From Gracilaria domingensis (Eukaryota; Rhodophyta; Florideophyceae; Gracilariales; Gracilariaceae), in NCBI GenBank assembly GCA_022539475.1, contig VCMS01000374.1:1-46238 (forward strand): DNA of 46,238 nucleotides, read 5' to 3'. This document shows, piece by piece, positions 21,133 through 46,238 of the stretch. Position 1 is the first letter of the stretch, and each line of letters starts with the position of its first letter. Both the position numbers and the translations under genes were made by a program. The notes beneath the pieces were generated by a model that was not told the DNA's origin, did not search any database, and saw only the letters and a program-made list of their open reading frames with translations.

Positions 21133-21135
21133 AAG

Positions 21136-21148
21136 TGGTCTCCCGACC
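21136..21148 (+). promoter_or_regulatory. Primer binding site, element 1
   Basis: TGGTCTCCCGACC starts three bases after the LTR end and begins with TGG, the complement of a tRNA CCA end. It is not the initiator-Met type (TGGTATCAGAGC or similar). Element 2 has nearly the same site. Confidence 0.7.
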
Positions 21149-21249
21149 TAGAAAGATTAGGAGATTGAAGGGTTTGACACTCTTGTGTATTCCGTCTTTG
21201 AGGTTCGTTTCCCCTTGGAAGTTCCCGTGTAACGGTTCGCTGGATACCG

Positions 21250-23449
21250 ATGTCTCGGAAGCCCTCGGATGCGGAGCCTGCGATCACTCGCAGTCGTTCC
21301 CACAACGGTGGTGCTCCCGCCGATAGTCGACCTCCTTCGAAGATCCTGGTGCGCCCTGGATCGACCCTTGGCGTCAGGCCGTCCTCGAGGCTGTCCACCC
21401 AACCGGCACGCCGGACACTTCCGTTTTCCCCGTTGATTCCTCCTACGGATGGTGCTACTCCGGAAGCTCCCGTCGTTTCTGGCACAGCTCCTGCTGTTCA
21501 AGCTACGTCCGCTGCCACGGTGCAACAACCCCGTCGGGAGAAGGTCAACAACATCTAGGGAATTACCCTGGAAGAGCAGGTTCGCATCTTGCGGGCTGCT
21601 CACAATTCCCTTTTGGGAGCTCATGATTCCCTCATTGGAGAGTTTAGGTCCCTTCGCGATGAAGTGAGGGCTGCTCCTGTGAAGGATGTCGCAGAGGATC
21701 TCCGTATCCTACGGTCTGACGGCAACACTGCTGGAATGTCTTGGAGGACCCGCTGCCTTCGTGGAAGGAGTTGAGACCCGATTCGATCGGATTCGAGAGC
21801 GTCTGGAGACGTTGGAAAAAGCTGCTATGGCAGGATTCAACACTCCGGCGGAGCCGGTTGTCGTGTCGCACCGCGACAAGCACACTGGTCGGGATAGGTC
21901 TCGCCGCAGGCGGAAGTTCAAGGAAGAAGACCAGGACTCGGACTCGTCGAGTACGTCGATTGACAACCCGAATGGCTCGCAAGGTTGCGACTCGTCGGAC
22001 TGCTCCGAGGACGATCGTCGCGCTGGGCGCTATTTACGCTCAAAGCGGTCGTCGGCCTCCCATGGTGCCGTTCGAGCTCGTTCGAAAGGACGGAAACACT
22101 CCGGCCTTAAGGAGCTGAATCCGACAAACCCGATGTATCGGAAGTTATTGTCTTACCGGTACTACCGTTTGGAAGATTCTTCACTGGATCGTACACCCGG
22201 TGGAACGGGAAAAGTCAAGGATTGCATCAAGCGCATGCAACTCTCTCTTCGTAACCAGACCTTTTCTGGAGAAGACCCAGTGTTGGTGCTTGATTTTCTT
22301 GCCCGCTTCGTAGCGGAAGCCGATATTCTCGGTATGAATGAAGGCCAAGCGTACATCGCGTTACCGTATTTCTTACGTAGTGTGGCCGAGGACCAGTACA
22401 ACTCCATGCGGAGCTCTTCACGGGCCTCCGAGGAGGGAGTTACCTGCTGGCCCGAAGCAGTTCAATACCTGCTGAGGTCATACGCCACCAATGATGCTAT
22501 TGGGAATGCCATACTCGCTTTGCGAGACACTCGTCAGCGTCAGGGAGAGAGCGAAACCGATTACTCGGTACGCCTGAACAAGGCTTTCCACCGCAGTGGG
22601 AATGTCTAACCCGTCGGGGAACGCTGCACGATGTTCGTGGATGGGCTGGATCCTGCTATCAAGACCTTAGTCGCCCGCTACCGCGAGGATAAGCGGAAGG
22701 TTACCTACATCGAGTTGGTCCAATACGCTCGAGCGGAAGGTGATGCACTACGTGCACGAGGCCCTAGTACTAGGATCAGGTCCGCCAAGGCGTTGATGAT
22801 GGAGAAAAAATCCCCATCTTTGTCGCTAATAGCGAATGAGGCCTCCCAACGGGAGTATGATAAAGTACAGCTTGCCCATGATGGGTTGGGTTCCATTCCA
22901 ACGACCAAACTACCGTCGACAACGGACGCTTCTTTCGACACGGCCCAAGACGGCACCCTGCTTTACGCAGATGCCAACCGTGTTCACGGACCTCGAATTC
23001 CGTACTCGAACGGAGCAACCCGTTTTCAACGTCCAGGATGGAAGGACACCCGACCTTGGGTAGGGTTCACCGATGCTCGGAATGCGGCCCCGCGTACGGG
23101 TGGTAGATTGGCAATCTGTCACCTCTGCTACACGCATGGTCACATCTCGCCCCAGTGTCTACTCTCCATGAGAGATATGGCCAAAGTTACGGTGAACTAC
23201 GAGGCCCTCACTCCTGAGGAGAAGCAATCCGTCCCAATGAAGTCGTATCTGCGTGCCAAGACGGACTTTTCACATGCCGTCACGACAGCTCCGCCACAAC
23301 GGAATGTCCCCGCACAGCCGGTACGCCCTGCTCCACAGGTTGTTGCCGATCAAAACACCGCTCATGCGGGACCCCACGGCCAACGGGCCCATGCACTTGT
23401 TGCCGAGGAACCTGAGCAGCCGCCGCAGGCGGAAGCCCAGGGAAACTAA
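21250..23449 (+). pseudogene. gag: gag of element 1 (matrix/capsid region plus zinc knuckle)
   Basis: Gag packages the element RNA. The ATG at 21250 opens a Ser/Pro/Arg-rich N-terminus. The reading frame is interrupted by TAG at 21556-21558, a frameshift near 21720, and TAA at 22607-22609, but is protein-like throughout. The middle part (DPVLVLDFLARFVAEAD, about 22275) resembles retrotransposon capsid proteins and aligns by eye with gag of element 2 (DPIAIIDFLQRF). The nucleocapsid motif CHLCYTHGHISPQC (about 23117-23160) is a CX2CX4HX4C zinc knuckle. The stop TAA at 23447 is directly preceded by the slippery heptamer GGGAAAC. Confidence 0.8.
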
Positions 23450-23483
23450 ACGAGGGAGTCTCCCTTTCGGGAGAGACGTCCTC
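23440..23483 (+). promoter_or_regulatory. Programmed -1 frameshift signal at the gag/pol junction, element 1
   Basis: In the gag frame the last codons are CAG GGA AAC TAA, so 23440-23446 is a canonical X XXY YYZ heptamer, G GGA AAC. The pol frame is the -1 frame and is open from 23416. Twelve bases after the heptamer, TCTCCC (23459-23464) pairs with GGGAGA (23469-23474) around TTTC; GAGG and CCTC may extend it outward. This is the usual slippery site plus stem-loop layout. Confidence 0.7.
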
Positions 23484-24436
23484 AGGATCGAGGCTGTTGA
23501 CGTCCGAGGCGTCACCGCCTCGCTCCCCGGTGAAAATCCTTTCGAGGATTGACGCCGCTGACGCGGATTCGGAACACCTTGGTGTTTTGCGTCGACCGTG
23601 GATACGGGTGAAGAATAACCGGGTCCCGGATAAAATCATGGTGATGGCCAAGCGTAACTATAAGGTATACGCTGACCTTGGCCTTGACCCCCAGTTTATG
23701 GTGCGTTACCTGACTGTATTAGACACAGGTGCAGGTCCGAACTTCATCGTTGAATCGCTCCTAACACCGCCATTGCGGGCTCGTATGCGCAGCGGCACCT
23801 TGCCGGACGTCGCAGATGCGAACAACAACCCGTTATCAACGGTGGGAACAATCGGCTTAGTCGTGCGTTTGGGAACATATGTGGTGAAGGTCGACTTCAT
23901 CGTGTGCCGGTCATTAGCTGCCCCAATCATCTTGGGTTGTGACTATTGCGACAGGTTTGTCGATTCGATAAGACCCCGCCTCAGGCTTGTGGAACTTGAG
24001 GACGGTTCGTCCGTCCCTATTGTTGGTCGTCCTCTGAAGCGTGCGTCGAAGAAACATGTTCCTCTGCCTGCTGCGCAGGAATCTCAACCAGCTTCACGTG
24101 AGTCCACCAAGCTTCGCGTCGCTGCGTCGATCGCAATCCCGCCGGAGTCCCAAGAAATGGTGTCAGTTAATTCCCGCCAACACGGTCTTCGGGTTATTCA
24201 ACCTCTTCCCTCGTTGTACGAGAAATACCAACTCGCTGTCGCGAATGGTGTTGTGCAAGTCACACCGGATACTCCGTTTCGGATACTTGTTGCCAACCTT
24301 GGCAGTACCCCCCAGTATCTGGTGAAGAACCAAGTCATTGGGTCTGTGACGCCGCATCCGCTCGCGATGCTCCCAACGAAGATGACGGCTGCCGATGTCC
24401 TCGGATTAGTTACCTCCGAAGAGGACGACACCCCAT

Positions 24437-24450
24437 CTAAGGAGGGGGAG
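24437..24450 (+). promoter_or_regulatory. Internal copy of the polypurine tract, between protease and RT
   Basis: CTAAGGAGGGGGAG, identical to the 14-mer that includes the 3' polypurine tract at 31329-31342. Its wider context (CCATCT upstream, GA downstream) is shared with the second internal copy at 27664-27677. Confidence 0.6.
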
Positions 24451-27400
24451 GAAGCGGTTGTTTTCGCGGGTAAAACTACCGTTGCAACGGAGAAGTTCCC
24501 GGCTGACTCGGAAGCCAACCCTGTGTCAGGGACAGAAGAGCGCAAGCCCACGAGCTACGACAAGGTTGACCCCTTGAAGGCGCTCGAGGAACTTGATCTC
24601 GGTCATGTACCGGAGTCGCACCGTGAACGTCTGAGAGACATGTTACGGGAGTTTACCACAATGTGGGATGGCTCTCTTGGAGAGATATATGCAACGGAAC
24701 ACCGTATCGATTTGCTGCCGAATACGCGTCCGATAGCGCAACCACCTTACAGGGCAGGACCGAAGGCTCGGGAAGAAGAACAGTTCCAAGTGGATAAGAT
24801 GCTCCGCGCAGGCGTGATTGAAAACGCCGAGTCGCCATGGGCATCCCCAGTTGTACTGGCACTCAAAGCCGACGGAACCTGGAGGTTCTGTGTCGACCAC
24901 CGCCGGCTTACTGCCGTGACGATCAGAGATACGTACCCCATCCCTCGTATGGACGAGTGCATCGATTCGCTCGGCAACGCTACCGTGTTCACGGCATTGG
25001 ACGCCAATTGGGGATACTGGCAAGTTTCCGTTAGGGAGCAAGACCGCGATAAGACCGCGTTCGTTTGCCACTCGAGCAGTTACCGCTTCAAGCGGATGCC
25101 TTTTGGCCTAACCAACGCGCCCGCTACGTTCCAGCGTGCCATCGACATCTTGTTGAGCCGCTTCAAGTGGCGTACCTGTCTCGTCTACCTTGACGATATC
25201 ATCGTGTTTTCCAGTAATCTGGACGACCATCTCGCCCATGTCAGGGACGTGATGACCACTCTGCGCAATGCAGGTATAACCCTCAAGCTGAGGAAGTGTG
25301 AATTCTTCACCGATACTGTCAAGTATCTTGGACACATCATCCATCCAGGACGGTTGATGATCGAGGAGGCTCGCGTCAAATCACTCGCCAAGGCGAAGGC
25401 ACCGCGGACTCAAACGGAATTACGCTCCTTCTTAGGGCTGGTCAACGTCTACAGACGGTTCGTGCCGAACTTTTCGGTCATTGCGGCTCCCTTAAACGCA
25501 CTTTTGCGGAAAGGTCAGCCACCAAAACTGGACCCATTCACGCCCGCACAAGCGGAAGCATTTAACTCCTTAAAGGAGGCTGTCACATCAGCACCGATCT
25601 TATCGTTACCACAACCCGGCCTGCCGTTCTCTGTGGACACGGACTCAAGCGACGACCAAGTGGGATGCGCATTGTTCCAAACCACTCCTGAAGGAGAACG
25701 AAAGCCAATTGGTTATTGGTCACGTTCGCTGAACGTTCACGAACGGAACTACTTCGCTTCGGAGAAAGAGTGTCTCGCAGTTGTTTGGGCACTTTCTACT
25801 CTCCGCCTCTATCTCTTGGGTGTGCACTTTACCGTGTACACGGATCATTCCTCGTTGAGGTGGTTGATGAATATTTGCGATCCATCAGGCCGCCTCATGC
25901 GGTGGAGACTCCGCCTTGCGGAATTCGACTTCGAGGTGGTATACAAGAAGGGGACCCTGAACACTCAGGCGGACGCCTTGTCACGCTTACCCACTGATGG
26001 GGAGACTGTTGTTGCCGAAGACGAGGAAATACCTTGCTTCGTCGCTGACGATAATAACCCGGAACCTCCGGAATGGCAGTTTGACAACTGGCCAGAAGAC
26101 TGGGACGATATAGACGCTGACATTGACGAATGCTTGCTGCAGGCGAAAATGAGGCTGCAAAGCCCCTACCGGGGAATTTTGTCCCGGTAGCACCGGAAGA
26201 GATGATCCGAGAGCAACATGGAGACCCGTTTTGCATCAGGGTCCGTGCCCTACTTAACGGTGGTGATACCCTCCCATTCGTGGTTAACGACATCGGCTAC
26301 CTCGTGAGGACAGTCGAGTCACACCCACAAGTTGTGGTACCACACTCGTTGCAAACGAGGATCCCACACCTTTCGCATTACGCAAAGCTTGTCGGCCACG
26401 CAGGTGGAAGAAAACTGTACCTCACTTTGAGGAAAGACTTCTACTGGCCCGCCATGGCGGTGGATTGTTACGCTACGGTGCGGTTCTGCACCGAGTGCGC
26501 GAAGAATCGCGTGAAACTCCGAAAGAATTCGAAAAAAGTGAAACTATTCCCTGCCAGGGCGCCGCTTGAATTTGTGGCAATCGATATCCTCGGACCATTG
26601 CTTACCACTCGGAGAGGTAACAAATTTCTTCTCGTTATCACCGATCGGTTCTCGAAACTGGTTCGGACAGTACCTCTCAAGAGGATTACCGCATTCACAG
26701 TCGCGAAGGCATTTGCCACGCACTGGATCTTTGTGTACGGCCCTCCTGTGGAGTTATTATTCGATAACGGAAAGCAGTTCGCATCCCGGTTCTTCCAGGA
26801 TGTTTGCCGCATCATGGACGTGTAAAATCTTTTCACAACCACTTACCATCTCCAGTGTAATGGGCAGGTTGAACGGTATAACCGTACGATGCTGGCATCT
26901 CTCCGTTCTTACGTTGCTGACCACCCAAAAACATGGGACTTATACACTGACGCGTTAACCTTTGCGTATAACACGCAGGTGCACAGGACTACTGGTGTTT
27001 CCCCATTCGAACTGGTCTTGTCAAGAGCACCCCCACCTGTGGCGTTAGAATCACAAGCTACCTTGGGCAATTTCTCATCCGTGGGTGATTACCGCCAAAA
27101 ATGGAAGGCTTCGCTAACGAAATTAGTCCCCGCTGCCCGGAAGTCCATGGCAAAAGCCCAAGCCGCTTACAACCGTGATTTTGACGCTCGCTTGCGAGGA
27201 AGAACCCCTGAACCACTTACTGTGGGTCACCGTGTCTTTGTACGGAAGGAAAAATACAACCCTGAAAGGGATAAACGTCATAAGCTCTCGCCTGTGGCGG
27301 ATGGACCCTTCAAGGTAGTCTCGGTTACACCGGACACTTTGGTGGTACAAGTCGCTCACGCGCAGGAGCGGATCTCCCGCGATCGCGTGGTACTGGCCCC

Positions 27401-27663
27401 CCCACCCTCGTCTGAGTTTACCCCGTCTCGTACGGAACCCGTGTCTACGGACTCAACAGCACCGGTACAACCGGAAACAAATGTGATGTCAAGACCTTCA
27501 GTCTTGCCCCACCCCAACAGAGGCCTTACAGACCTCCCGGTGGAGTCGGATCACCCGACTGCGTCGGAAAACAATAGCCACACTGGCACCCCCGTTTCTA
27601 CCCCATCGTTGGGTTCGCTAACCCGCGATGCGGGACGCTCTGCCACTCCCCACGCCGCTCCAT

Positions 27664-27677
27664 CTAAGGAGGGGGAG
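27664..27677 (+). promoter_or_regulatory. Second internal polypurine tract copy
   Basis: The same 14-mer as at 24437 and 31329, inside the linker after integrase. The 20-mer starting CCATCT is exact between 24433 and 27660. Confidence 0.6.
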
Positions 27678-28493
27678 GAGGATATCTGCTCTGCTGAGGA
27701 TTCAATTCCGACGTCGCGTCGTGAGAACAACCGTGCAGCACGGACTGGTCCGACATCTCCGGATGTTCCGGTCAGTGAAGGGACCACGCGCTCGCAACGA
27801 TCGCAACATACACCCGTCCACAAGAAGTCTACACCGTCGCCGGTTGAGGGCACTCACGCAGAAGCGGAATCATTGAAGTCACAAGAAACTCGTGGTTTAC
27901 CAGCCGCGCTCGGTCAAACGGAGTCGAATGATGTCGCCGGCATAAAGCCGACGTCGTCGGAACGAAGCCCCACTGGGGAAAGCGCAGCGACACCGCAACC
28001 CACCGCGCAACGCGATGCAGAAGGACCAGGAACCCTGGGAAATACAGCGGAGCAGCCTCGAGCAGGAAAAAAAGGGACCCCAAGTGCCTCGGTATACACT
28101 GACACCACCGTTGGTGGAATGCCGGACCCTCCGGGGAGAGTTCACGTCAAGGACGGTACGAAATCACCAAGTGCTGGGTATAAGATATCGGCGCAGGCGC
28201 AGCCGCGCGTCGAGATCGCGAGATCGAACGCCGTCGGCGGTGTCAAAAGCCCCGGTAACCCGGACGTAGCCGTTCAGAACGGGAATCAAAAAGTTGGAAA
28301 AATTGGAAATTCAACGGCGCAGCCGTTGAGCGACACCTGTAACAGGGAGGCAGTTCTCCCAAGGGATCGTGGAAACCAACCGTTGGAGCAGTCACGTGCA
28401 CGCACGGTGGTCGAGCCCCGTGAGAAGGCATCTCCCGCGTCAAGCGGAAACGGCGATCAGCAAGCCGCTGCGGCACCGACTGAACCGTCATGA

Positions 28494-28995
28494 CGGAAGG
28501 ATCCACGCAAACTTGCGGTACGACGGCAAGGCGTCGCCAGCTCATCTAGCGTCACCACCCCTCAAAAGGGAATTGCCACCGCCGAGCGGGATACTGCGCA
28601 GGCAGAAATTGCGCTCCATGAGAAGGCGAGGCGACCACCGTGATTCGGGTATTGAGCGCTCCCTAAGAGGTGAAGCAATCGCACGAATTACGGCAAGCTG
28701 CGCGGAAGTTCCACTCGTGGATATCGCACCCCCACAAGGGTTGTCGCAAGGAGATGTGACTACAACACGGCAAGGCCGGCAAGTGTACGTTCAGGAGTAC
28801 GTTGTCGTCGACATTGTCGGGCATACCTGGGACCAGGAGGGCATCTTGTTATACCGCGTCCGTTGGTACGGTTACGACCCAAGTTGGGATACTCTTGAGC
28901 CAATCGAGCACCTGCCTCGCTCGAAGGTCATTAGTTATCACCGTAAAACGGGTACTGCACCGCCAGCGACGCTGGATCAAGCCCAAGTGGGATAA
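28494..28995 (+). pseudogene. Chromodomain segment of element 1 pol
   Basis: Chromodomains at integrase C-termini tether integration to marked histones. The motif runs from about 28787 (EYVVVDIVGH) through LYRVRWYGYDPSWDTLEP to HLPRSKVISYHRK at about 28960, with aromatic positions Tyr, Trp and Trp of the histone-binding cage region. It is in a different frame from the end of the pol linker; frames cross somewhere in 28500-28660, another frameshift or a spliced junction. It ends at TAA 28993-28995. Confidence 0.8.
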
Positions 28996-29384
28996 GGTTG
29001 CCGTAGAAACGGAGGAAGTCAGATCGTTGGCACACACACGTCATGCGACGGGATTGAGTCCATACCACCTTGGTGGGAATGCTCGCCGTATGGACGGTTT
29101 GACCGGCTCGCGGCGCTCGAACACCGATTTTCGGAAAGAAGACTCATTCCTGAGGGTATTTCATCCAGCTCGCTGGTAGTGGCACCCACGCCACGCAATG
29201 GGTATGGTTTTTCCGCCCGGAAGGGTGCGCGTTTTCGGGCGTACCGCAAAGCAAAACCGGCTATGCCGGGAGGAACAAAAGGACACCGTCCGAGACGGGT
29301 AAGAAGAAAGGATACTATTTATCTCAAGCTACACTACTGTATTCAGGTATACACCCAAGCTATGGGGACGGAAGGAGACGACGG
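28996..29384. other. Spacer between chromodomain and antisense ORF, element 1
   Basis: No supported gene. It separates the convergent 3' ends of pol and the antisense ORF and may hold their polyadenylation signals. Confidence 0.4.
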
Positions 29385-31303
29385 CTACTGGCCGGTACCA
29401 CCGCCCTCCTCGGGAGGTTGTACACCGCCAAGGCGTTGAGCCAAGGACTCGGTCATTGCGGCGACATCGCCGGAGGCCATGTTCGCGCCCAGACCCGCGC
29501 CGCGGAGGAAACGAGCAATGATAGCCCCTTCGTCCATACCCGCAGGCGGGGGATTCGCCTCGGAGGCCGCAACCGGAGGGACCGGAGCAGGGTCTGCAGC
29601 TGACTCCGTCGCGACGGGGACCGTGCTCGGCGCAATGCCGCTCGCTCCCTCCGCCGGAGGTTCAGGCGTCTCGTCCATCACTCCCCCATCGTCACCACCC
29701 GTATCATCGGGATCGTTATCCATCATTGGAGCAACCTCGAGGTAATCTCGGTAGTACTCGTCGGAGTGAACGAACCCAGTGAGGTGATCGGCCGGCACGC
29801 GCCGGGGAGCGAAACGGAGCTCAGCCGCTTCCTCAGCGGAGGTCTCCCGGTACTCCCACGGGTCGAAGAAGACATAGTCGCCCGCCAAGGCGGTATTTCT
29901 TCCCATACCTGGGCCGAAGCCACCCGTGTTGGGGGAGTCCGCTCGTCCGCTCTGTCCGAGAGGGACTTCACTCCAGTCGGCGCTGTCGATATAGTCCAGC
30001 AAACCGAGGACTTCCTCGTTGTTGGCACGACCCCCGAGGGGGACTGCAAGATCCAATCCTCAAATGGCGGCTCGCACGCGAGGTTGAATGAACCACAGTC
30101 TGTACTGGTCGTACGCCTCAGCGAGGATATAAGCCGCGGTGCGGACTGCCCATTCGGTGACGACGACCGACCACAACCCGGTACGGGGATCTGTCAGCAG
30201 ATAGGACCCTAAGTAGGTGAACACAACTCAACATAGCACCCCCGGCACGCCTCCAGGTAATTCCACCACTCTAAGAGGGCTACATACCGACCTTTTCGGT
30301 GCGCCGGAGCGATGCGCTGGATTTCCACGTTCTGGTACGGGACAAATTACCCATGTTGGGACCGAGCGCGCCGTTCAAAACGGATGAAGTTCTGAAGGAA
30401 GTTCGACCGCGAACGGCGGGAGAGGTATCGAAACTCTGCCCGAATAATCGGTCGCTGCCAACAGATGGCTTCTTGCCGCGCTACGGGCATCCCGCGCCAC
30501 GTGAAGGTCTCCAACGCCGCGAGGCGGTCGCAGTAGCTGATCTCCCCGCGAGTGCGGTATAGCTCAACGTCGAAGTTGAGACCCGGAGGAATCGGAAACT
30601 CGAATGGAGCCCGGCTTTGCCGTTTGTAAGCCACCTGCACGAACGCAGCATGAGCTTCAGCCCGGGACTCCCGGTTATTCCGCAGCACATGGTGCAAGGA
30701 GATGGCCACGCGACTGCGCCAATCCCACGAAGTGGTCACAATGGCACGCAGGTCCCCCGGAAGGGTGTCTCGCCCGTCGGCGTACTCAGCGATGAGGTTC
30801 TCGTTGAACACCGTTGTCGGGTGAAACCACGGCGCGAGCCGGAGGCGTCTAGCGTGACCCCGGTTCGCCGGATTGAGCCCCACAAGGGAGTTGTACGGCG
30901 GCCAGAGCACGCCAGCTGGAAACCCTTCGAAGGGACCCGCGTTAGCGGCCTGTTGCGCGGAGGAGCCAGAACCGTGTTGGGCGGCAGAACCAGCGGCGGT
31001 GCTGGGAGTTCGGTTGGTCAGTTGCCCGCCTTGCGGGGGCGGTACGGATCGGAACCCGGTGAAGCCCCCGGAGGGGAACGGAGGTTGGTTCGGAGGTTGG
31101 TTCGGCGGCAGTCCACTCATCGTGAGGTCGATTACCGGCGTTGTCGGAGGGTTGGTTTGGAGCGCTGTGGCGTTGGGTTCACTCGAAGGAGGTTCGTTCA
31201 CTGCTACGGCAGGTGTGGGTGTGTGAGTGTGTGAGGGAGAAGTTTGTTGCACCGGCGAGCCGGAAGAGGGCGTGCTTTTATGCGCTATCGCTGGCCTCGC
31301 CAA
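29385..31303 (-). pseudogene. Antisense ORF of element 1, unknown function, broken
   Basis: The reverse strand is coding-like across the whole interval. Part A (31303-30347) is Pro/Ser/Gln-rich at its start; the first real ATG is at 31120 (MSGLPPNQPP). It then becomes a folded-looking region with many Trp, Arg and Tyr (TTSWDWRSRVAISLHHVLRN). Part B, in shifted frames between 30346 and 30057, reads ALLEWWNYLEACRGCYVEL and LWSVVVTEWAVRTAAYILAE. Part C (30056-29385) follows after one in-frame TGA and ends in an Asp/Gly/Pro-rich acidic tail. About 600 residues in all. No domain recognised. A comparable antisense ORF sits at the same place in element 2, so this is a conserved gene of these elements and not a shadow. 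Confidence 0.65.
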
Positions 31304-31328
31304 CCTCGTTCCGAGGACGTCTTGCCGC

Positions 31329-31343
31329 CTAAGGAGGGGGAGA
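31329..31343 (+). promoter_or_regulatory. 3' polypurine tract, element 1
   Basis: AAGGAGGGGGAGA lies immediately upstream of the 3' LTR TG at 31344, the expected primer for plus-strand synthesis. Confidence 0.9.
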
Positions 31344-32116
31344 TGTAGTGCAACGCCCTCGATTGAGGTATTTACTTGAGACTATTCATAATTTCCCGCT
31401 ACGCGGTGAGTGTGGGTCGGGGAATATATGACTGTAGCCATCACTGAGATGGAAGTAGGACACGTGGGACACGGTGTGTGAGTCATGGGAGGTTGGCCAC
31501 TACACGTGGAGAATTGCCACAATTTGTGGAATGTTTAGTTAATATTATTCATTAATTTTAGCGCGAGCAGTACTTAGCGCGCCGGCGTCGCCGCCGTCGC
31601 GCCCAGTAAAGTTCCCCAACCAGGGTGACCCTACTGACGGGTCTTGGCTCTAATCGTTCACGCCTTCGGCGGTGCTCGACTCCTAATCGGAGAGACCCCC
31701 CGTTGACACGGTTCGTTTATCCACCCTGCGTCCTCTAAAGGAACCCAACTGTGGGAGTGTTTTACCGCTGTTTGTCGCGTTCGCCCCTGTATAGGGAAAG
31801 CCCCGGCAGTACGCCGTTATCCTTCGTCACCTTGTCGCGAGGCCCCACCCCGTGGTGCTCTCGCTCTCCTTTTCCTTTTCCATTTCTTTCCTCCAACCCT
31901 CTTCCGAGGTATTGCACACCCACGTGTCGTGGTACTCCCTTCTTTGCTCCACCTTTCTATTTCAACTCTCATCGCCCCGTCGTGACGGTTTGGCCCCGGT
32001 CTTACACCCGGCTCGTTGTGCCATTCCAGAGAGGCTCTGTTCGCTTCGCTACCCTCCGTAGAGGAAGATCACGAACGTCTTCGTGGTGTCTTTTCCCGCT
32101 CACGGGTTGCACTACA
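31344..32116 (+). repeat. 3' LTR of element 1
   Basis: Same length as the 5' LTR (773 bp) with about eight substitutions by eye and no indels: for example near 31417, 31438, 31453, 31537 and four in the last 90 bp. Confidence 0.92.
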
Positions 32117-33029
32117 ACAACAGGAACCGATGGGGCGCGTCGTGGCGCTGGCGTGGAGGCAAAAAAAAATTTCTTCGCCGCCTGGTGGGCTGAGCCACAG
32201 TTTGGTAGTATAAAACGTCGCCGGCACAGGCGACAGCGTAGACTGCGGTAAGTTGATCGGCGCCCAAACCCAGTCCATCGGTCCATTGGCTGATTAGAAC
32301 AGCGTGGTAGTCCGTCGATTCGCGCCTCTGTCCACCGATCTATTCATCGGGTCGGGCGGGCAAAGGACGCTGCTGACTCATTACTGTAGTGCAGTACTCG
32401 ACGAGTGACAAACACGTAGCGTGCGACAAAAAAGACGCAGACAAGTTGATTGACAGCAAGTAAGGAGAAAGCCGATCAAGACGTGAAGCGAAGTCAGTAT
32501 GGCGCTTTACTACGCGCGAAGCGCCGCATCCCAGCACGAGGGTACCAGCGCATATGGTTCAAGGCAAGGCCGTGCTGTACGGTTCGAGGATGCGCCTGGC
32601 TCTGGTTTCTAGCCACCGGGGCGACGGCTGCGGACAACGATCGCCGCTATTGAGACCAGGGTTATGTGAAGTGGCTCGCTGTACATTCGCAAGAAGCGTA
32701 AAGTGAGAGGCCGCAAGGAGCATGCTCATGCAGGTCTCGATTATGGGGGCGTTGACAAGCGCCCGCTTCTGCGTACAGAGCGCAATCTGAAGATTCAATA
32801 CAGAAATGATTCTGCTACCAACACTCATGGGTCGGACTGGGTTATGCCCTTATCCCTATATCCTTTGCAAGACCGATTTTGATCACGCTGGCCAGCAAGA
32901 TTTTGCGAGAATGAGAGAAAATCTCGCTGGCCAGCGAGACGTTCTCAGTGTAGCAGCGAGAGCTTCTCGCTACTAATGTGAGAGCTCTCGCATGCGCGCC
33001 GTCGTTCTCGCACCGTAGCTCGTCTCTCC
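32117..33029. other. Non-coding flank with palindrome cluster
   Basis: No supported gene. It holds an A9 run (about 32161), TATAAAA (about 32210) next to a GTCGCC/GGCGAC hairpin, and a palindrome cluster near 32886-32995. Confidence 0.4.
32886..32995. repeat. Cluster of TCTCGC-type palindromes
   Basis: GCTGGCCAGC (32887-32896), the perfect 18-bp TCTCGCTGGCCAGCGAGA (32922-32939), a near-palindrome AGCGAGA/TTCTCGCT (32955-32971) and GAGAGCTCTC (32980-32989) lie within 105 bp. The shared half-site is GCGAGA. Confidence 0.7.
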
Positions 33030-37685: not shown

Positions 37686-38257
37686 TGTAGTATAGCTCGG
37701 CCAGATCAACGGGGGCTCTACAAGACCAAGTGGTGACGTCACGGGCTCCCGGGCACGTGTGTCTACTGTACCACGTGGGACGCGCAAGCGCAGGCTTGGA
37801 CAGGACTAATTAGTCTATTCTCGATAATTTAGAATTAATAATTACTAGGTAGTGTAGATATGTGGCCGGGGTGGTGCACCACAAATGCACCTCCCGGTGG
37901 CCCACGTGGCACTAGGCCCGTGAGAGCCGGAGGGGCGCTCGGGGGTACTAAACCCCCGAGCCGCCAACCTCCCACACCAAATGGTAAAGTCAAGCACCAA
38001 CTAGGCTAATTTGACACCAGTTCGGTTCTACAGTCACCAATTGGTAAGTCTAGTAGTCCTCTAATAGTTTTGCTGACCTCGAGGGTTATACGTGCCTGCC
38101 GCACACCAGTGCAGGCGTATTTACCACTTGGTCACCGTGCACTATAGGCAACGGCGGGTGCTGCCGACCTATTAGGTGTCACGCGTTTCACTCCTCCGCC
38201 GGGTCGAGCCCACGCAGGGCTCCCCACTAGCAGCTCGCACCGATCGGTTATACCACA
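37686..38257 (+). repeat. 5' LTR of element 2 (boundaries inferred)
   Basis: The LTR begins TGTAGTATAGC where the transposase homology stops and ends GTTATACCACA, six bases before the primer binding site; the ends are inverted with two mismatches. The 3' partner is not in the window, so limits cannot be confirmed. It contains four exact ACCANNTGGT palindromes. Confidence 0.7.
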
Positions 38258-38262
38258 TATTT

Positions 38263-38275
38263 TGGTCTCCCGACT
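38263..38275 (+). promoter_or_regulatory. Primer binding site, element 2
   Basis: TGGTCTCCCGACT, followed by TAGAAA, is the same as in element 1 apart from one base in 18, implying the same tRNA primer in two families. Confidence 0.7.
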
Positions 38276-38390
38276 TAGAAATCTGTGGATTACCAAGTGG
38301 TTTTGGGAAGGGAGGATTTGGAAGTCACGAGATACCCGAGTAGTTTGGTTCCCGTTGCCGAAGCAATTGGCTCCGACGCCAGTTACCTAA

Positions 38391-40657
38391 ATGGAGAAAC
38401 GGGGCGCGCGCTACCCAAATAGGGCGCCGAGCGCTCCACCAAGTGGTCACCCCATACGGGGTTCAGTGTCCTATCTGGTGTTGGATAGCCCGGAGGACCT
38501 GATTCGGAAGGAACGCCCACCGAGGGGGAAGAAGGTAGACCGAGAGGCTGGGGGCCCCTCGACCCTTCCCCGGGCTGACCAAATGGATGGAGGAGCAGGC
38601 TCCGCAAGGGCGGAGCCCGCTCCTGTAACAACCCCAGTGGTAGACCAAAGGGAGGTGCCAGTCGGACCGCGACTGGACTTGGACGAGGTCACCCGAGTGG
38701 TAGTTGATCGAGCCTCCCAGGAGGTCCTCGACAAGGTACCTGTGGTGGTGTTACAGTACCTCGAAAACGAGGTGCGAGGACACATCGACCGATTGGTTAT
38801 GCTGGCTCTGCAGCAGCAGGGGGCTAAGCTTCAACCTGAGATGGTGGCCCAGGCCGCGCTCATGAAGCAAGCTCCCCCGCCTGCAGTAGACGCCACCAAA
38901 CCACTTGGTATTCTCCACCCTAACCTTCCTACACAACCGACTGGTGAAGGATTTATCGACCGTATGGGGAAAGGGGCAGAGCCTCCAGGGATGGAGGGCC
39001 CGAGGTACGTTTACCTCCCCCAACCTACTGGTGTAGCTCCGTCAGGACCCAGTGGTGGAGACCCTGATGGAGATTCGTCGAGCTCAGGAGACGAGCGTCG
39101 ACGTAAACCAAATGGTAAGAAGAAGAAAACCAAAAGGGGAAAGAGAAAGAGTCGCCGGTCGGACTCGGACTCTTCGTCCTCAGACACCGATTCGGATTCG
39201 TCAGGAGACGACGACCGTACAGGTTCACGACGCAAGAGGAAGGACTCTCGCAAGAAGAAAGGAAAGAATCCCCGCAAGGGTAAGACCAAAAGGTATAACG
39301 ATTCGGACTCAACTTCCGACGAGGAGACTGACCTAGAGGTGCTTACGCCGCTCAATGATTTATTCACCAAAGCGGTTGACTATCGTACCTATAGGTTAGA
39401 GAACAGACAGGCTGAGTATACCAAAGAGGTAGCTCAGAAGATAACGAAGCATCATAGGAAGCTTCGTTTCCAACTGGGTGAAACTCGCTTTAGCGGGGAT
39501 GACCCTATTGCGATCATTGATTTCCTTCAAAGGTTCAAGATCGCTTGTGATCAGAATGGGTTTTCAGAGGCAGCAGCCATGTGGCTGTTTCAATTTTACC
39601 TAACTGGTCAGGCTGGAGCGTTGCTCCACAGCCGCCTCCAAGGAAACACCATGGCGGTGGACGAAGACCAAACGGAAATGTTGACAACATACCCACAGGT
39701 GGTTAACTTCCTACTGGAAACCTACGCGACCGATGAGATAATCCAGGAGGCGTACGCAGAGGTGCTTGCGTACCGCCAGCGCGCGGGACAAACCGAATTG
39801 GAATTCGCTCCCTCCTTATGGGCATTAGCCTCCCGCTGTGGAAGCGTCTTTACTACCAAAAGGTTGAAATCGATGTACGCCGACAACGTGGCGAAGTCTA
39901 TCCGATCACAGGTTCGTAACTACCTAGCTACCAACCGCACTGTCGACTACAACGCACTAGCCCGCCATGCACAGGGACTAGGCGACACCGTTCGGTCAGG
40001 GGCCAGGAAAGACTCCGCACCACTCGGCAAACCATCGAAGGAGAAAGGAAAGACCAGGCGGTCAGTGTTTGACGTAGAGGAAGAGGAGACCACTACGGAG
40101 GAGGCGTCCACACAATACGCCTCCCAGGGTCACCCAGTCCACTTGGTGCATGCGCAACCGACAACTCGATCGCACGGTAATACCTCTTGGTCCAACTCGC
40201 TATCCAGCGAGCCACCCTCAAGACAAACCTCAGCTCCACCATCACAGGTATCCGTACCGGTCAGCCCGGTCCTAGCGGTACCATTCAAGCAATATGGTAA
40301 ACGAGGACCATCCCCGCCGCAACGGAGTGCAGTACCTATTGGAGGCCGTCCCCATCGCGCGCGTCGTCGCTCGCGATGAAGGACCCCACAACCGGCAATC
40401 TCCTCTGTTGGTTCTGTTTGTCGCCCCACCACTTGGCAACAGCGTGCCCAAGTGTGGCTCCGCAGAACAGGAACGCTCTCCTGACTGCTCGCCAGCAGAA
40501 CCACCAGGATATATTTGGGCCCACGGCGCGAAGCGCAGGCACGGGACACGCAAATGCGCGACCCAATGCAGCCACACCTCATCAGGTACACCTCGTTACG
40601 GAGCAGGACCAAACGGATCCCGCCCCGCAGGCGGAAAACGCCGAACAGTTGGGATAG
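38391..40657 (+). pseudogene. gag: gag of element 2 with zinc knuckle in a second frame
   Basis: The first ORF (38391-40379, 662 codons) has a Pro-rich N-terminus, a Lys/Arg/Ser/Asp-rich tract (about 39100-39300), then a capsid-like segment (DPIAIIDFLQRFKIACD, LLETYATDEIIQEAY) related to element 1 gag. It ends in TGA at 40377-40379. A second ORF in the -1 frame begins with the overlapping ATG (ATGA, 40376) and carries CWFCLSPHHLATAC, a CX2CX4HX4C knuckle, to TAG at 40655-40657. Element 1 has both parts in one frame, so this is either a one-base indel or a stop/start-coupled pair. Confidence 0.8.
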
Positions 40658-40691
40658 AGGCCTTCCACAACTGTCCAAAGACGGAAGGCCT
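40658..40691 (+). promoter_or_regulatory. Strong stem-loop directly after the gag stop, element 2
   Basis: AGGCCTTCC (40658-40666) and GGAAGGCCT (40683-40691) form a perfect 9-bp stem with a 16-nt loop, starting at the base after the gag TAG. Pol is in the -1 frame, as in element 1, so the stem may stimulate frameshifting; the nearest slippery-like string (G GAA AAC, 40633-40639) is not canonical. Confidence 0.5.
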
Positions 40692-41538
40692 TCCAGAACC
40701 AAGTGGTGCAAGTATGGACAATTACCCATTGGTTACAGGGGAGGAGAGCCTCATGGACGGCACCGAACCGATATGCTTTCTCAAGCATAGTAACTATAAG
40801 GTAAACGTCACCCTCGGGTTTACTTCTAACCACTTGGTACCATGCGTCACTGTCCTGGACACCGGGGCAGGACCTAATCTGGTGAATGCCAAACTATTAA
40901 CTAACAGACAACTTAATAAGCTTCAGCCATGTACATTAACTAACCCACTGGTTGACGCCAACAACAGACCACTAACCGTCATGGGAGCGCTTACCATAAT
41001 GGTATTGATTGACACCATGAGGGTCCGAGTTCGCTTCATAGTCGTTAACCAACTGGCAACAGACTGTATCCTCGGCACAACTTTTATAGACCAGCATGTC
41101 AGGGCAATTTTTCCACGTTCTAAGACAGTTCTGTTCCATAATGGCCCCCGGATCGCCATTATTGGTAACCACAAGGGTGTCTCTCCGAAAGAGAACCGCA
41201 CTCGACACCAACCGGTCCCGGAAAACACACTCTCCAACAAGGTGCGATTGGCAAAGGCGGTAACAATACCGCCTATGAACCACTTGGTAGTGAAGGTCAC
41301 ATGCCAACAACCTGGCCTGTTATCCGTTCAGAACCATTCACGGTTGGCCGAACGACACATGACCTTAATGGCGAATGGTATAGTCGACAACATACCGACA
41401 AAACCGTTTCAGGTCTACCTGAGTACCTTCAGCAACCGCCCGGTCAAGTTGCCAAAGCACACCGTAATTGGTCTTGCCTTACCGGCTCCCCGTACGATCT
41501 TTACAATTATACCACAATGGTCCCACGAGGTCGTGGAT

Positions 41539-41553
41539 GCTAAGGAAGGGGGG
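41539..41553 (+). promoter_or_regulatory. Polypurine tract-like site between protease and RT, element 2
   Basis: GCTAAGGAAGGGGGG lies in the same protease-RT linker as the internal tract of element 1 and has the same CTAAGGA start. A second copy is at 44952-44968. Confidence 0.5.
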
Positions 41554-44408
41554 TGCAGTGTCAATTCGTTGAATTCGTCGCGAACAGACCATGTGGTGCA
41601 GCGACTAGCTGAGCGAGAAGACCAGAAACTGGAGCTCGACCCAGTGACCAATTGGAAGACGGAGGTGAATATAGGACTTGAAGGGGAAGAGCTCAGAGCT
41701 CGGATCCTTGGACTCCTGGAGCCATTCAGTACCATGTGGTCGGGTAAGCTGGGAGCCATTAAGGCCACCCAGCACAGGATTGACCTCAAACCGGACTCCC
41801 GTCCCATCCACCAACAGCCATACCGCGCGGGACATAAGGCCCGTGAGGTAGAGCTGGAGGAGGTAGAGCGGATGCTCCGCGAGGGGGTTATAGAACCGGC
41901 AAACTCGGAATGGGCTAGCCCTGTAGTGCTAGTCCAAAAACGAGGAGAGACCCGTATGAGGTTCTGTATTGACTACAGAAAACTTAATGCCGTAACGGTA
42001 AGGGACTCGTACCCCATCCCGAGGATGGATGAATGCATCGACTCCCTAGGAGATGCGAACATCTTTACCACACTGGACGCCAACTGCGGGTATTGGCAGA
42101 TCGAAATACCAGAGGGTGACCGTGATAAGACAGCGTTTACATGCCACGCAGGCCTGTATCGCTTCTTACGCATGCCGTTTGGTTTAAGAAACGCCCCCGC
42201 TACCTTCCAAAGGGCGTTAGACATCATACTGTCTAAAGTGAAGTGGACAACCGCATTGGTATACATAGATGACGTAGTCATCTACTCGAGGTCCATAGAG
42301 GAGCACTTCTCACACGTCCAAGTGGTACTGCAGTTGCTACAAGAGGCAGGCGTGACCCTCAAACTACGAAAGTGTATGTTCTTCAACCAAGAGGTAGAGT
42401 ACCTAGGGCATACAATAAGCCCCGGGAAACTCGAAGTGACCAAACGGAATATCCGAGCGGTACAGGAAGCGAAGCTCCCTACGTCGCAGACGGACATACG
42501 ATCCTTTATAGGTCTATGCAACGTCTACCGGCGGTTCATCAAGGGTTTCGCAAAGATAGCCGCACCCCTGAACCGGAGGTTGCAGAAGGGGCAGCCCACA
42601 CACTTTGACCACCTGGAAGAGGACGAGGTAGAGGCGTTCTATACATTGTAAGCAGCGCTTCTCTCCCCACCGGTACTGGCATTGCCCAAAACGGGACTCC
42701 CGTATACACTGGACACGGATGCGTCGGACGCCCAAATAGGTTGCTGCCTAATGCAGGAACAGGAGGACGGCAAGCTCGCACCAATTGGGTATTGGAGTAG
42801 AGCTCTTAACCAAGCGGAGCAGAACTACACCGTAACGGAGAAGGAATGCCTAGCGGTTGTTTGGAGCATGCTCATGCTACGTCCTTACCTATATGGTGTG
42901 CGCTTCACGCTCCGAACGGATCACGACTCCTTGAGGTGGATATTAGGCTTGGCGGACGCATCGGGTCGTCTGGCCCGATGGCGTCTGAGACTCTCGGAGT
43001 TTGAGTACGATGTGCAGTACCGCCCCGGGGTCAAGCACCGAGTGGCGGATGCATTGTCCCGGTTGAATACCGAAGGATTGGACACTGACCCAGTGGACGA
43101 CGACATCCCATGCTTTACTATAGAACCAGCTAACCACGAGGTCAATGAAGTTCTGAAGGGATACTGGCATGATGACAGTACGCACCATGTGGTAGTGGAG
43201 ACCCTCCTTCCTGTGGAGGAAGGGGAACACGCTCCAATCACCCGTGAGGAATTCTTACGCGAACAATCGACCGATAGGCTGTGCAAAACGCTCGCTGACG
43301 TACTTGGAAGGAAGGATTCTCATTTCGACGTCGACCACAATGGGTACCTCATCAGACGCTCACCTTTAGACGGAGCTCTCCAGAAGGTCGTACCTGAGTC
43401 ATTAAGACAAAGGGTGTTATATCTGTCACACAATCCACGGCTTTCGGGACACCCTGGAGCCACGCGGTTGTACTATACCCTTCGGAGGCAATTCTACTGG
43501 CCGCATATGGCTAACGATGTATATACCTATGTGGCGCAATGCAATTCGTGCATTAAGACCCGAGGTGGTGTGGCGAAGCACAGGAAGTACCTAAAGCTAT
43601 TCCCGGCGGCGGGGCCCCTGGAATTCGTAGCAATCGACATACTGGGGCCCCTGCTCAAGACCTCAGAGGGTTATCGCTTTGTAGTAGTCATAACCGACAG
43701 GTTCACAAAGCTCACCAGAGCCATACCTCTGAAGAACCAAACGGCAACGACACTAGCGACAGCCTTCCTGGAGAATTGGGTCTACCCGTACGGTGCTCCC
43801 ATGTACCTACTGACCGATAACGGTTCGAACCTAGCTTCTAAGTTCTTCGAGGCGGTTTGTACAATGCTAGGGGTCAAGCACTACTTTACCACGGCCTATC
43901 ATCCGCAAACAAACGGCCAAGTGGAACGCTTCAATAAGACCCTAGTGGCACGCCTACGGCACTATGTCGAAGAGCACCAAACCACATGGTCGGAGTATGT
44001 CCAACCATTGACATATGCGTACAACCTCCAGGTCCACAGGGTCACTCAAACAACCCCATTCGACCTGGTACTTTCGCGAACACCACATGGTATTATCGTC
44101 CAGCCCGGACCTGACCGCTCGGAAGCGGCCGGAACACTCACACCGGCGAAGGTCAAGAGAAACATACTCCAGAAGTTACGCGCCGCTTTGGCTGCTGCCA
44201 AAGTTAAGATGACAGCAGCCCAAGAACGGTATAAAGCGGAATATGACCGAACGGTGAGCAAAGTGACCAAAGTGGTAGCAGGAGACATGGTCTTCCTTGA
44301 CGTGCCACCAAAAGGTAAGCGACCAACCCCAGCGGAGATGGAAGAGGACATCCGCCTTGAGGAGGATATCAATTCTAAACTACTACCCAAGTCCACGGAC
44401 CATACAAG

Positions 44409-44984
44409 GTGATTCGCTCCGACGAGCATACCGCTACGGTCATAATGGAAGGTTTGGAGAACACGGTCTCCATCGACAGGATTGTCAAGGCCGCACAACC
44501 GACGACAGCGAATGCACAACCAATAGGTGAGCCAACGCAGCAGGAAGCGGAGAGGGAGCAAACGTCTCCCATACCCCCTCCTATGATGAGTCAGCCGAGC
44601 GGTCAACCTTCCACCAGAGCCGTAACGGCTGACCCCACGACCCAAGCGGCACAGGAGATCGAGCCTCGGCAAGACCAACGGGTCACACCACCCACGGGGA
44701 GCCACGCACCCCATGACCAAATGGAAGAGTCACACCCTCAAGTAGACACTCAGGAGTGCGCTATTGACACCATTGTAGGTCACGAACACACCACAAAGGG
44801 TATGCGCTACCGGGTAAGATGGTATGGATGGTCGCCCGAGCACGACTCTATGGAACCACCTGGTCATATCCCTAGCAACTTCATCATCCGATACTGGCGC
44901 AAGCAAGGGCGAACGCCCCACCAACTGGTATTGCTTCGCGTGGTACGCGTCGCTAAGGAAGGGGGGGGTTATCGAAGCCGTTGA
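44409..44984 (+). pseudogene. Integrase tail and chromodomain of element 2
   Basis: Continues pol in a new frame after the shift near 44390: IRSDEHTATVIMEGL is the integrase C-terminal strand region, followed by a polar linker and the chromodomain (about 44750-44915: ECAIDTIVGHEH, MRYRVRWYGWSPEHDSMEP, IPSNFIIRYWRK). It reads through the ACCANNTGGT sites at 44856 and 44920. Confidence 0.8.
44952..44968 (+). promoter_or_regulatory. Polypurine tract-like site after the chromodomain, element 2
   Basis: GCTAAGGAAGGGGGGGG at the end of the sense genes and before the antisense ORF. It could be an old 3' tract, now separated from the LTR by the antisense ORF segment. Confidence 0.5.
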
Positions 44985-45106
44985 ACGCCACGCTACACGA
45001 AAAGCTAACTAACTAACCTAACAGGAAAACAAAAGAAGATCAGAGATCACAATGCAAGACACTTTATTAGTCGGGAAGAATCCACGAGAGGGAACCACGA
45101 GGTGAC

Positions 45107-46238
45107 TTAGGAGGCCTTGGAGGACCCACGGCCACGTCCGCGTCCACGACTGGTTCCACGACCGCGACCACGTCCACGGGAGGTCCCGCGAGATGAAGCG
45201 GAACCTCCACGACCAGAGGACACCGACATAGGTCCGGCGGAGCTTCCGCCCCCGCCGCTAGCCGCGCTCGGTGGCGCACCACCACTTGGTAAGGGAGCAG
45301 AAGTACCAGCAGGTCCCGCAGGGGTACCGCTGCTGACTACCGGCATGGTATTCGCAGGACCAGTGGGTGGATGGAAGGAAGGCGGTAAGCTAGACGGAGG
45401 GATGCCACCAGAGGTCGGAGGAGCAAGACCACTAGACGGCCCTGCACCGGGGGTCAGACCAGTAGGCGGCCTAGGAGCACCGCACGTCGGCGGAAGCGGA
45501 GCCGAACGGAAACCAGTTGAGAAACCACTTGGTGCTCCTGTCCCAGTACTTGCTGGAGGAAGAGGAACGTTGTGAGGACCAAGCGGAGTATGGAAAGGTG
45601 CCGCAGGATCACCACCAGGAGGTCCACCAGGGAGTTGATACGTACCAAGGCCACCAAAGCCTACCATTGGGGTCGCAGGTTGCTGTGACGCAGGAGCGTA
45701 CGGGTTGAAACTTTCCACAGGGGGTCGATGTAACGGCGCGTGGCCTTCCACAAGGTTGCTCAACTGACCAACATAGGCTGTCACCTCACGGTAGAGATTG
45801 CGCTGGAAGTAGTCGCGGAACTGTCGCAGCTCAGAAGTGCGCCGCTCGTGGTGAGAAACCACGGGGAGCAAGTTGGTAAGAGTATCCACAGCGGTGAGGA
45901 TGTCATTTGGACCAGGACGGTTGAAGTGCACCATCGAGGCGTGGTTGAGACGAGCCAGAAGCGCTCGCGTATGCGCCCTATCAGCCACCAGGGGGCACGC
46001 GGATTCACCGGGAGCGACTGGAAACCAACCCGAAGAGCCCCCTGGCAGCCCGTTTCCGGAGGGTGAGCAGCCGCCTGAAGGGTTAGCCGGACGCACTTGG
46101 AACAGGGCGCAGCCACGCTGTCGGAGGAGTAGCTGTACAGGTGAGACGGAGGCATGCGGGGGACCATAGTTCTCGGCAGCCACCATCACGTATTTCGTCA
46201 TTACCAAATGGGTCTTTCGCCAGCGCATGTGCTGCTGT
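45107..46238 (-). CDS. Antisense ORF of element 2, partial, RG-rich C-terminus
   Basis: An uninterrupted reverse-strand ORF of at least 376 codons enters from the window end (open upstream of the ATG at 46228) and stops at 45107. The N-terminal visible part (THLVMTKYVMVAAENYG) resembles TEWAVRTAAYILAEAYD of the element 1 antisense ORF. A Leu/Arg/His-rich helical segment follows (RRTSELRQFRDYFQRN), then a long Pro/Gly/Thr-rich linker, then a tail of SRGRGRGRG repeats ending SSKAS, typical of RNA-binding RG motifs. Function unknown; a nucleic-acid-binding accessory protein is an inference. No stops or frameshifts, unlike the sense genes of the same element. Confidence 0.7.
   Translation of the reverse strand, partial: QQHMRWRKTHLVMTKYVMVAAENYGPPHASVSPVQLLLRQRGCALFQVRPANPSGGCSPSGNGLPGGSSGWFPVAPGESACPLVADRAHTRALLARLNHASMVHFNRPGPNDILTAVDTLTNLLPVVSHHERRTSELRQFRDYFQRNLYREVTAYVGQLSNLVEGHAPLHRPPVESFNPYAPASQQPATPMVGFGGLGTYQLPGGPPGGDPAAPFHTPLGPHNVPLPPASTGTGAPSGFSTGFRSAPLPPTCGAPRPPTGLTPGAGPSSGLAPPTSGGIPPSSLPPSFHPPTGPANTMPVVSSGTPAGPAGTSAPLPSGGAPPSAASGGGGSSAGPMSVSSGRGGSASSRGTSRGRGRGRGTSRGRGRGRGSSKAS

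Follow-up and report, generated by a model that had tools for sequence, protein, structure and literature searches.

In Arabidopsis, VANC proteins bind short family-specific motifs in their own VANDAL elements and remove silencing (PMC5735166, PMC10398659). These motifs (YAGTATTAY, and AGTTGTCC and AGTTGTAC) are described in PMC5735166 as non-palindromic, same-orientation repeats in non-coding regions. The plant Gypsy elements Retand, Grande and RIRE2 have an antisense open reading frame (ORF) between pol and the 3' long terminal repeat (LTR), and DNA binding is predicted for its product (PMC11963269). Here we describe two Ty3 chromoviruses, element 1 and element 2, in a 46,238-base stretch of the red alga Gracilaria domingensis (the whole of contig VCMS01000374.1, C374 in our numbering and hereafter the window, from an assembly of 77.9 Mb in 680 contigs). 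Each element carries its own type of short dyad throughout its coding and non-coding DNA, that of element 1 being as dense as that of element 2 or denser.

As reported for VANC and VANDAL, the motif is short and family specific, is enriched within its own element while rare in other DNA, and differs between related families, and individual sites are gained and lost fast (PMC5735166). The reader in that system is encoded by the element and its binding has been demonstrated (PMC5735166), whereas a reader of the algal dyads is putative. A further difference is that the dyads belong to LTR retrotransposons and are dispersed singly through coding and non-coding DNA, with 15 of 20 exact sites of element 2 in coding frames. 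Among literature found with a limited set of wordings, with subscription journals largely outside it, no title or abstract opening dealt with dyad codes running through coding sequence or with such codes in red-algal elements. The accounts of the VANC and Retand systems consulted here describe no such dispersed dyads. We regard the pattern as new; its function is something that we infer.

A dyad code throughout element 2

The palindrome ACCANNTGGT occurs 21 times in the window in exact form, once at 3408 and 20 times between 37725 and 45533, within element 2. Dinucleotide shuffling gave a mean of 0.67 for the whole window (largest value 4 in 100 shuffles) and 0.21 for element 2 alone. The original prediction, made from the letters of the window, had counted these 20 sites as far above expectation and placed four in the LTR and the others in the leader, gag, pol, chromodomain and antisense ORF. 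We find the same number and the same locations (four LTR sites, one in the leader, 13 in the gag, pol and chromodomain frames and two in the antisense ORF):

37725..37734, LTR, ACCAAGTGGT
37976..37985, LTR, ACCAAATGGT
38036..38045, LTR, ACCAATTGGT
38123..38132, LTR, ACCACTTGGT
38292..38301, leader, ACCAAGTGGT
38438..38447, gag, ACCAAGTGGT
38900..38909, gag, ACCACTTGGT
39107..39116, gag, ACCAAATGGT
40698..40707, pol, ACCAAGTGGT
40829..40838, pol, ACCACTTGGT
41279..41288, pol, ACCACTTGGT
41588..41597, pol, ACCATGTGGT
41731..41740, pol, ACCATGTGGT
43184..43193, pol, ACCATGTGGT
43981..43990, integrase-bearing ORF, ACCACATGGT
44082..44091, integrase-bearing ORF, ACCACATGGT
44855..44864, chromodomain ORF, ACCACCTGGT
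44920..44929, chromodomain ORF, ACCAACTGGT
45281..45290, antisense ORF, ACCACTTGGT
45524..45533, antisense ORF, ACCACTTGGT

The many one-mismatch versions that had been noted are also real: sites with at most one mismatch number 71 in the window against 16.4 expected. Across gaps of 0 to 20, ACCA-N2-TGGT is the extreme 4+4 dyad of element 2 (z 38.4, compared with at most 10.1 in 200 shuffles). Another genomic copy, C4, which has the 3' part missing from the window, contains 29 exact sites, both LTRs included (22 and 7 in two stretches).

Neither composition nor protein sequence accounts for this density. Synonymous-codon shuffling yielded a mean of 2.4 sites and a maximum of 7 in 2000 shuffles, against 15 observed in coding DNA, as the original prediction had claimed when it held the proteins not to explain the sites. 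For ACC-N4-GGT in three gag and pol frames, 35 were observed against a codon-shuffle mean of 8.0 and a maximum of 18 (300 shuffles). The enrichment over dinucleotide- and codon-shuffled controls that had been proposed as a test is thus present in both. All three codon phases are used in pol (2,1,1,1,0 and 1,0,2), as stated earlier, but not in gag taken alone, where every site is in phase 2; the chromodomain sites are in phases 2 and 1. Some strong sites (39023, 39855 and 40943) do fall on protein positions conserved between element 2 and a sister family that shares them, L051. For the bulk of the sites, the shuffles refute chance, base composition or protein sequence as the source, and we give such an origin practically no credence.

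The exact palindrome is the strongest member of a wider dyad code, (A)CC(A)NN(T)GG(T). Element 2 holds 152 CC-N4-GG and 101 CC-N5-GG dyads, where about 59 of the former and 59 of the latter would be expected; the preferred bases are A at the first and fourth positions and T at the seventh and tenth. Among 32 one-mismatch sites, the change affects half-site position 1 in 11 and position 4 in 21, and never CC/GG. The same is seen in L051, whose gag is about 61% identical in amino acids over 337 residues and whose nucleotide identity is 0.52-0.62 over five aligned stretches: 8 of its 14 one-mismatch sites differ at A1, 6 at A4 and none in CC/GG. This sparing of CC was overlooked in the original prediction, as was the separate dyad code of element 1. 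Spacing is strict, with 20 sites at a gap of 2 and only 0-3 at any other gap from 0 to 10. Both orientations of the center occur among the 20 sites (AG 4, CT 6, TG 3, CA 2). The inner preferences are near independent, as A4 and T7 stand together in 35 CC-N4-GG sites, with 30 expected from the margins. To judge from the sequence, this shape fits two half-sites that would be contacted by a dimer on double-stranded DNA. The core had been read as an E-box (CANNTG), with a host factor of basic helix-loop-helix type among several binders suggested. That is a poor fit because CANNTG varies most at its A and T (21 of 32 one-mismatch sites in element 2, 6 of 14 in the sister family).

A different code in element 1

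Element 1 contains no exact copy of ACCANNTGGT, in line with the earlier count. A blind dyad scan instead found CCGT-N4-ACGG at 15 sites in the window, all 15 of them inside element 1, for example:

20716..20727, CCGT-N4-ACGG site in element 1, CCGTTGACACGG
24983..24994, CCGT-N4-ACGG site in pol of element 1, CCGTGTTCACGG
28485..28496, CCGT-N4-ACGG site at the end of pol and start of the chromodomain ORF of element 1, CCGTCATGACGG
29606..29617, CCGT-N4-ACGG site in the antisense ORF of element 1, CCGTCGCGACGG

Taken as the code itself, this word is too narrow, being the commonest member of a broader class. Dyads of the form CC-XY-N(3-5)-Y'X'-GG, in which X and Y may be any bases provided that both inner pairs are Watson-Crick, number 142 over the whole element length against 14.5 expected, and mostly span 11-13 bases in total. 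Four sense coding stretches hold 70 of them, with a codon-shuffle mean of 11.7 and a maximum of 20 (300 shuffles). The pairing requirement is strict. When one inner pair is Watson-Crick, a G.U second pair occurs 15 times in the sense reading against 12.4 expected and 26 times in the antisense reading against 13.0, and any other mismatch 71 times against 53.7. The stems mostly end at CC/GG, the next outer pair being complementary in only 14 of 164. However, CC/GG is not an absolute end rule: four-pair stems whose outer step differs are over-represented as well (CG 83 vs 16.5, CT 38 vs 7.3, TC 32 vs 10.5), although 29 of the CG-ended, 18 of the CT-ended and 12 of the TC-ended stems belong to a stem with a CC step. 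CC ends are the strongest preference of this code, not an absolute one.

These properties bear on the possibility that the dyads form small stem-loops, whether in genomic RNA or in complementary DNA (cDNA), that would be bound repeatedly by Gag or nucleocapsid for packaging or would shape the RNA. Element 1 dyads need Watson-Crick pairing and are mostly stems of 4-5 base pairs with loops of 3-5 bases; inner pairs made only of A and T are rare (5 of 142 stems, compared with 154 of 888 CCXY tetramers), and since stems with other outer steps are in excess too, what the dyads have in common is pairing and not any one sequence. Both elements have negative mean folding z values (-0.86 for element 1, -1.20 for element 2), compared with +0.30 for window 1-14246. 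On the other hand, sense G.U pairs are not in excess, the folding bias of element 1 is equal on both strands (-0.86 and -0.83), and an unrelated element with terminal inverted repeats (TIRs) reaches -0.69 (standard error of the mean 0.38). The loop bases are strand-symmetric, no gap is enriched for GG...CC, the outer A/T of element 2 need not pair, and a two-pair CC/GG stem would not fold. The dispersed packaging signals of RNA viruses are comparable in being many short elements spread over a genome (PMC6281560), and element 1 dyads could be stem-loops of this kind; they differ in that the algal dyads have no strand preference or sense wobble excess and that CC...GG is identical on both strands. 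We consider an RNA or cDNA structure possible but on the whole rather unlikely.

The two codes exclude each other. Counts were made in 15 stretches, each shuffled 200 times, for rule 1 (the element 1 dyad class) and rule 2 (CC-N4-GG in which three or all four of the A/T places agree). All five element 1-type stretches are strong in rule 1, which is near chance in all six element 2-type stretches; for rule 2 the reverse holds, with strong counts in all six of the latter and near-chance counts in all five of the former. Both are near chance in window 1-14246, the TIR element (14247-19441), window 32118-37685 and one flank bearing a long interspersed nuclear element (1.5 kb). The equal density in other transposable elements or DNA with which the original prediction would have fallen is therefore not found in the stretches tested. 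An element-specific meaning is favored over a general host meaning because the second family has a different code and lacks that of ACCANNTGGT.

In Drosophila, the gypsy insulator is a cluster of Su(Hw) sites within a single region of a Ty3-type element, and its reader is a zinc-finger protein of the host. Such arrays are a precedent for the idea that the algal elements exploit sites of a host factor, be it a transcriptional activator, an insulator or a chromatin protein; both have many factor sites, although the algal ones are element-wide instead of clustered. The four LTR sites agree with this, the LTR being the expected place of transcription start. We nevertheless think it unlikely: two families of one genome use mutually exclusive codes, the sites fill coding regions and the antisense gene, where a promoter does not need them, and sites for a host repressor would be expected to be lost, not kept.

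Turnover and conservation of the sites

The sites turn over while their density is kept. L051 has 18 rule-2 sites against 1.2 expected, yet over 1926 aligned bases, element 2 (11 strong sites) and L051 (6) share only three positions, and none of the three exact element 2 sites in aligned bases is exact in L051. In the antisense gene, copy C408 has 8 rule-2 sites against 0.8 and C4 has 15 against 1.0, despite a synonymous divergence (dS) of 1.15 between them. C408 retains one of the four C4 sites in the antisense ORF and has lost another, and the remaining two lie beyond the aligned part; two of three C408 sites there are absent from C4. Element 1 behaves similarly. Two diverged element-1-like relatives, found in flanks of element 2 copies, hold 17 and 12 dyads in stretches of 1.2 kb, where 1.8 and 0.9 are expected. 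Where the sequences align (identity 0.70-0.84), element 1 has 17 dyads, of which 5 are identical in the relatives, 5 are altered but kept and 7 are lost, and 11 of the relatives' 23 dyads have no counterpart in element 1.

Rapid gain and loss, and in element 1 a Watson-Crick symmetry that is strict and lacks sense wobble, could point to a mutational or copying process without selection, such as quasi-palindrome templated repair in reverse transcription or biased gene conversion. Such a process would not be expected to produce the CC...GG end preference, the limits of the stems, the different spacings in the two families or the near-independent A/T preferences of element 2, and we judge it improbable.

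Conservation between copies had also been proposed as a check. Fixed bases are indeed less variable, at only modest significance (p 0.016-0.073). In 11 loci of close copies, with 8 further 3'-end loci for the LTR, 10 of 160 fixed-base columns vary, compared with 952 of 8393 other columns (p 0.023), 51 of 400 in the flanks (p 0.016 against the fixed bases) and 6 of 40 at NN (p 0.073). Across 31 loci over 40100-45100, fixed bases vary at 5 of 80 and NN at 5 of 20 columns (P 0.044 against random masks). This set leaves out the window itself (L002) and nine 10-kb loci that represent the same copies; one of its members, L001, matches the window at 100% identity and is possibly a duplicate contig. 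Strong sites vary at 11 of 112 columns, compared with 143 of 895 for other CC/GG (p 0.053). The cross-family evidence of turnover is stronger than that of conservation within the family. Of the DNA-level role first predicted, a role at the nucleic-acid level beyond protein is supported by the codon shuffles, the near-chance counts in other stretches and turnover at kept density; the E-box part is disfavored.

The two elements and their surroundings

Both elements have a chromodomain (Chromo, 28.3 bits in element 2 with a cut-off of 25.1, and 28.6 bits in element 1) and antisense ORFs between it and the 3' LTR. The order of pol in element 2, reverse transcriptase, RNase H and integrase, is that of a Ty3/Gypsy chromovirus. 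The 3' part of element 2 is truncated by the window end. The main features are as follows:

37686..38257, + strand, 5' LTR of element 2, 572 bp, TG...CA
38260..38276, + strand, probable primer binding site region (TGG...) judged from sequence, just 3' of the LTR and kept in the sister family
38391..40379, + strand, gag ORF of element 2, 662 amino acids
40294..42651, + strand, pol ORF of element 2 with reverse transcriptase (RVT_1 match)
42682..44412, + strand, pol ORF of element 2 with RNase H and integrase (domain matches)
44409..44984, + strand, chromodomain ORF of element 2 (Chromo match)
45107..46228, - strand, antisense ORF of element 2, C-terminal part only; in the C4 copy the ORF extends past the window end
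20360..21133, + strand, 5' LTR of element 1, 774 bp, 12 CC-XY-N3..5-Y'X'-GG dyads vs 0.9
21134..28995, + strand, leader, gag, pol and chromodomain of element 1, 89 own-code dyads vs 8.4
28996..31343, - strand, antisense part of element 1, ORFs 29385-30056 and 30347-31303, 41 dyads vs 4.6
31344..32117, + strand, 3' LTR of element 1, with 99.0% identity between the two LTRs

Complete copies of element 2 elsewhere in the genome have two LTRs and mostly 5-bp target duplications, exact in six of the seven copies with both ends readable. These six (aggtt, cttag, ctgat, cgaag, ctctt, gttat) include none with ACCA or TGGT, and we rejected targeting of integration to the motif; the further copy, C156, has no exact duplication. 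Among 635 candidates, 40 were scored, of which 39 (the window included) are 99-100% identical and one is 95% identical, which indicates a young, high-copy family. Named gag relatives come from Agarophyton chilense (43-53% identical). No relatives were confirmed in viral contigs or prokaryote genome contigs. Helical phasing of the 20 sites at 10.5 bp gave a Rayleigh R of 0.32.

Around the primer-binding region (38249-38280), element 2 and L051 are 94% identical; no other LTR nucleotide match was found between them. Copies of element 2 at L033/L034 and L035/L036 have flanks matching element 1 (71-84%, short ends up to 92%) and are probable nested insertions. A stretch of G000:C1 at about 14.5-27.6 kb has 15 CCGT-N4-ACGG and 12 interleaved CCGT-N5-ACGG sites, with spacings unlike those of element 1; it is perhaps another element with the element 1 code. 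The stretch 14247-19441 resembles a DNA transposon: its inverted repeats are 199 bp long and 92% complementary, and it has ORFs at 15129-18585, the one at 16498-18585 being without a Pfam match. ORFs at 35735-37690, directly upstream of element 2, resemble the TIR-element ORFs by eye (common stretch ILQSEDPGWFL). The C-rich stretch 33285-33953 contains a family of direct repeats with a 15-base period, as well as long ORFs of low complexity that overlap one another. In a flank of the C4 copy (L032:2-1660), an open frame resembles a non-LTR reverse transcriptase by eye.

The antisense gene

The antisense ORF of element 2 runs for 941 codons from stop to stop in C4 and for 935 in C65 and C181, and is fragmented in several other copies. 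We compared nine of eleven long copies (C91 and C189 excluded), each by its longest stop-free frame. Between C4 and the other eight, the ratio of nonsynonymous to synonymous divergence (dN/dS) is 0.11-0.51 (six at 0.16-0.26, C347 at 0.51 and C408 at 0.11, the last with dN 0.12). The ORF therefore looks like a gene under purifying selection. The antisense module of C408 is 77% identical in nucleotides, compared with 93% for most of the sense part, and modules in the genome fall into identity groups near 100, 87 and 73%, which suggests that the module is exchanged between lineages or is diverging fast.

The two elements have homologous antisense proteins (30% identity over 210 amino acids, pairwise E 8e-15, profile-comparison probability 96.7%). 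The protein of element 1 has two relatives, one of them from Gracilaria domingensis; its ORF is interrupted at 30057-30349 in the window copy, and the relatives P0036 and P0037 read through this stretch. The position of the large antisense ORF is the same as in Retand and its kin (PMC11963269). Retand elements are described as non-chromoviruses that mostly encode the putatively DNA-binding domain TRP28 (PF04195) (PMC11963269), whereas the algal elements have a chromodomain and antisense proteins without TRP28 or any Pfam match at E<=1 in four proteins or parts. The antisense product, one of the binders suggested in the original prediction, is the lead candidate for a reader of the code because its gene is common to both families and quickly diverging; its binding is putative, and Gag or integrase may be the reader too.

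Proposed function

We propose that the dyad code may be a family-specific "self" mark in DNA for a dimeric, probably element-encoded factor, an explanation that we hold tentatively and with somewhat less than even confidence. The code, its enrichment beyond composition and protein, its persistence through turnover, its family specificity and the conserved antisense gene are directly supported. That a factor binds, which protein this reader is and what effect it has are the steps that we infer, and they would run as follows. A dimeric factor would contact both half-sites on double-stranded DNA and so recognize copies of its own family. Weak dispersed sites would give specificity by density rather than by a single strong site, and the factor would concentrate on its own copies. 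The most likely user would be the element itself through an encoded protein, with the antisense ORF product as first candidate. The purpose could be to keep its own copies transcribable or marked as "self", by anti-silencing or autoregulation, in a manner like that of VANC and VANDAL.

Several points weigh against this proposal. Lone half-sites, too, are over-represented in element 2 (176 vs 85). Genome-wide counts against the reversed pattern as control (ACCANNTGGT 4164/1620, CCGTN4ACGG 5927/1517, CCGTN5ACGG 4417/1063) do not decide the matter because the controls ACCAN3TGGT (3109/1727) and the arbitrary CCTGN4CAGG (1590/530) are skewed as well; what is still informative genome-wide is the clustering of the first places listed and a two-site pattern (224 vs 0). 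The within-family conservation tests are modest, and their copies overlap from test to test. No DNA-binding domain was recognized in the antisense protein: four proteins or parts gave no Pfam match at E<=1, solved structures gave nothing convincing (one non-significant match, E 0.7), and the protein of element 2 has no relative at E<=0.01 among 7999 scored protein candidates. Antisense ORFs were read in copies of elements 1 and 2 only. Because stems without CC ends exceed chance in element 1, slightly less weight falls on the self mark and more on hairpins. Complementarity of unspecified bases is not predicted by direct reading of double-stranded DNA by a dimer, and single-strand pairing in RNA or cDNA explains this strict complementarity at least as well. 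A single account of the two codes suffers chiefly from the tension between pairing and the missing signs of action on one strand.

A more general form of the self mark can also be conceived, to which we give only limited credence: self/non-self recognition in red-algal Ty3 elements, in which element-wide dyad codes in coding sequence are kept by selection through turnover, each read by an antisense-encoded protein. The nature of the code would differ by family, being a sequence-specific dyad in element 2 and a matter of C-rich ends, span and internal complementarity in element 1.

If the function is real, a second message is overlaid on protein-coding DNA along the whole element length, and differs between related families. 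The pattern is quantitative and can be searched for in any LTR retrotransposon collection. If our proposal is true, these elements would provide a clean system for how selfish DNA tells its own copies apart, and for how a binding specificity and many dispersed sites change jointly.

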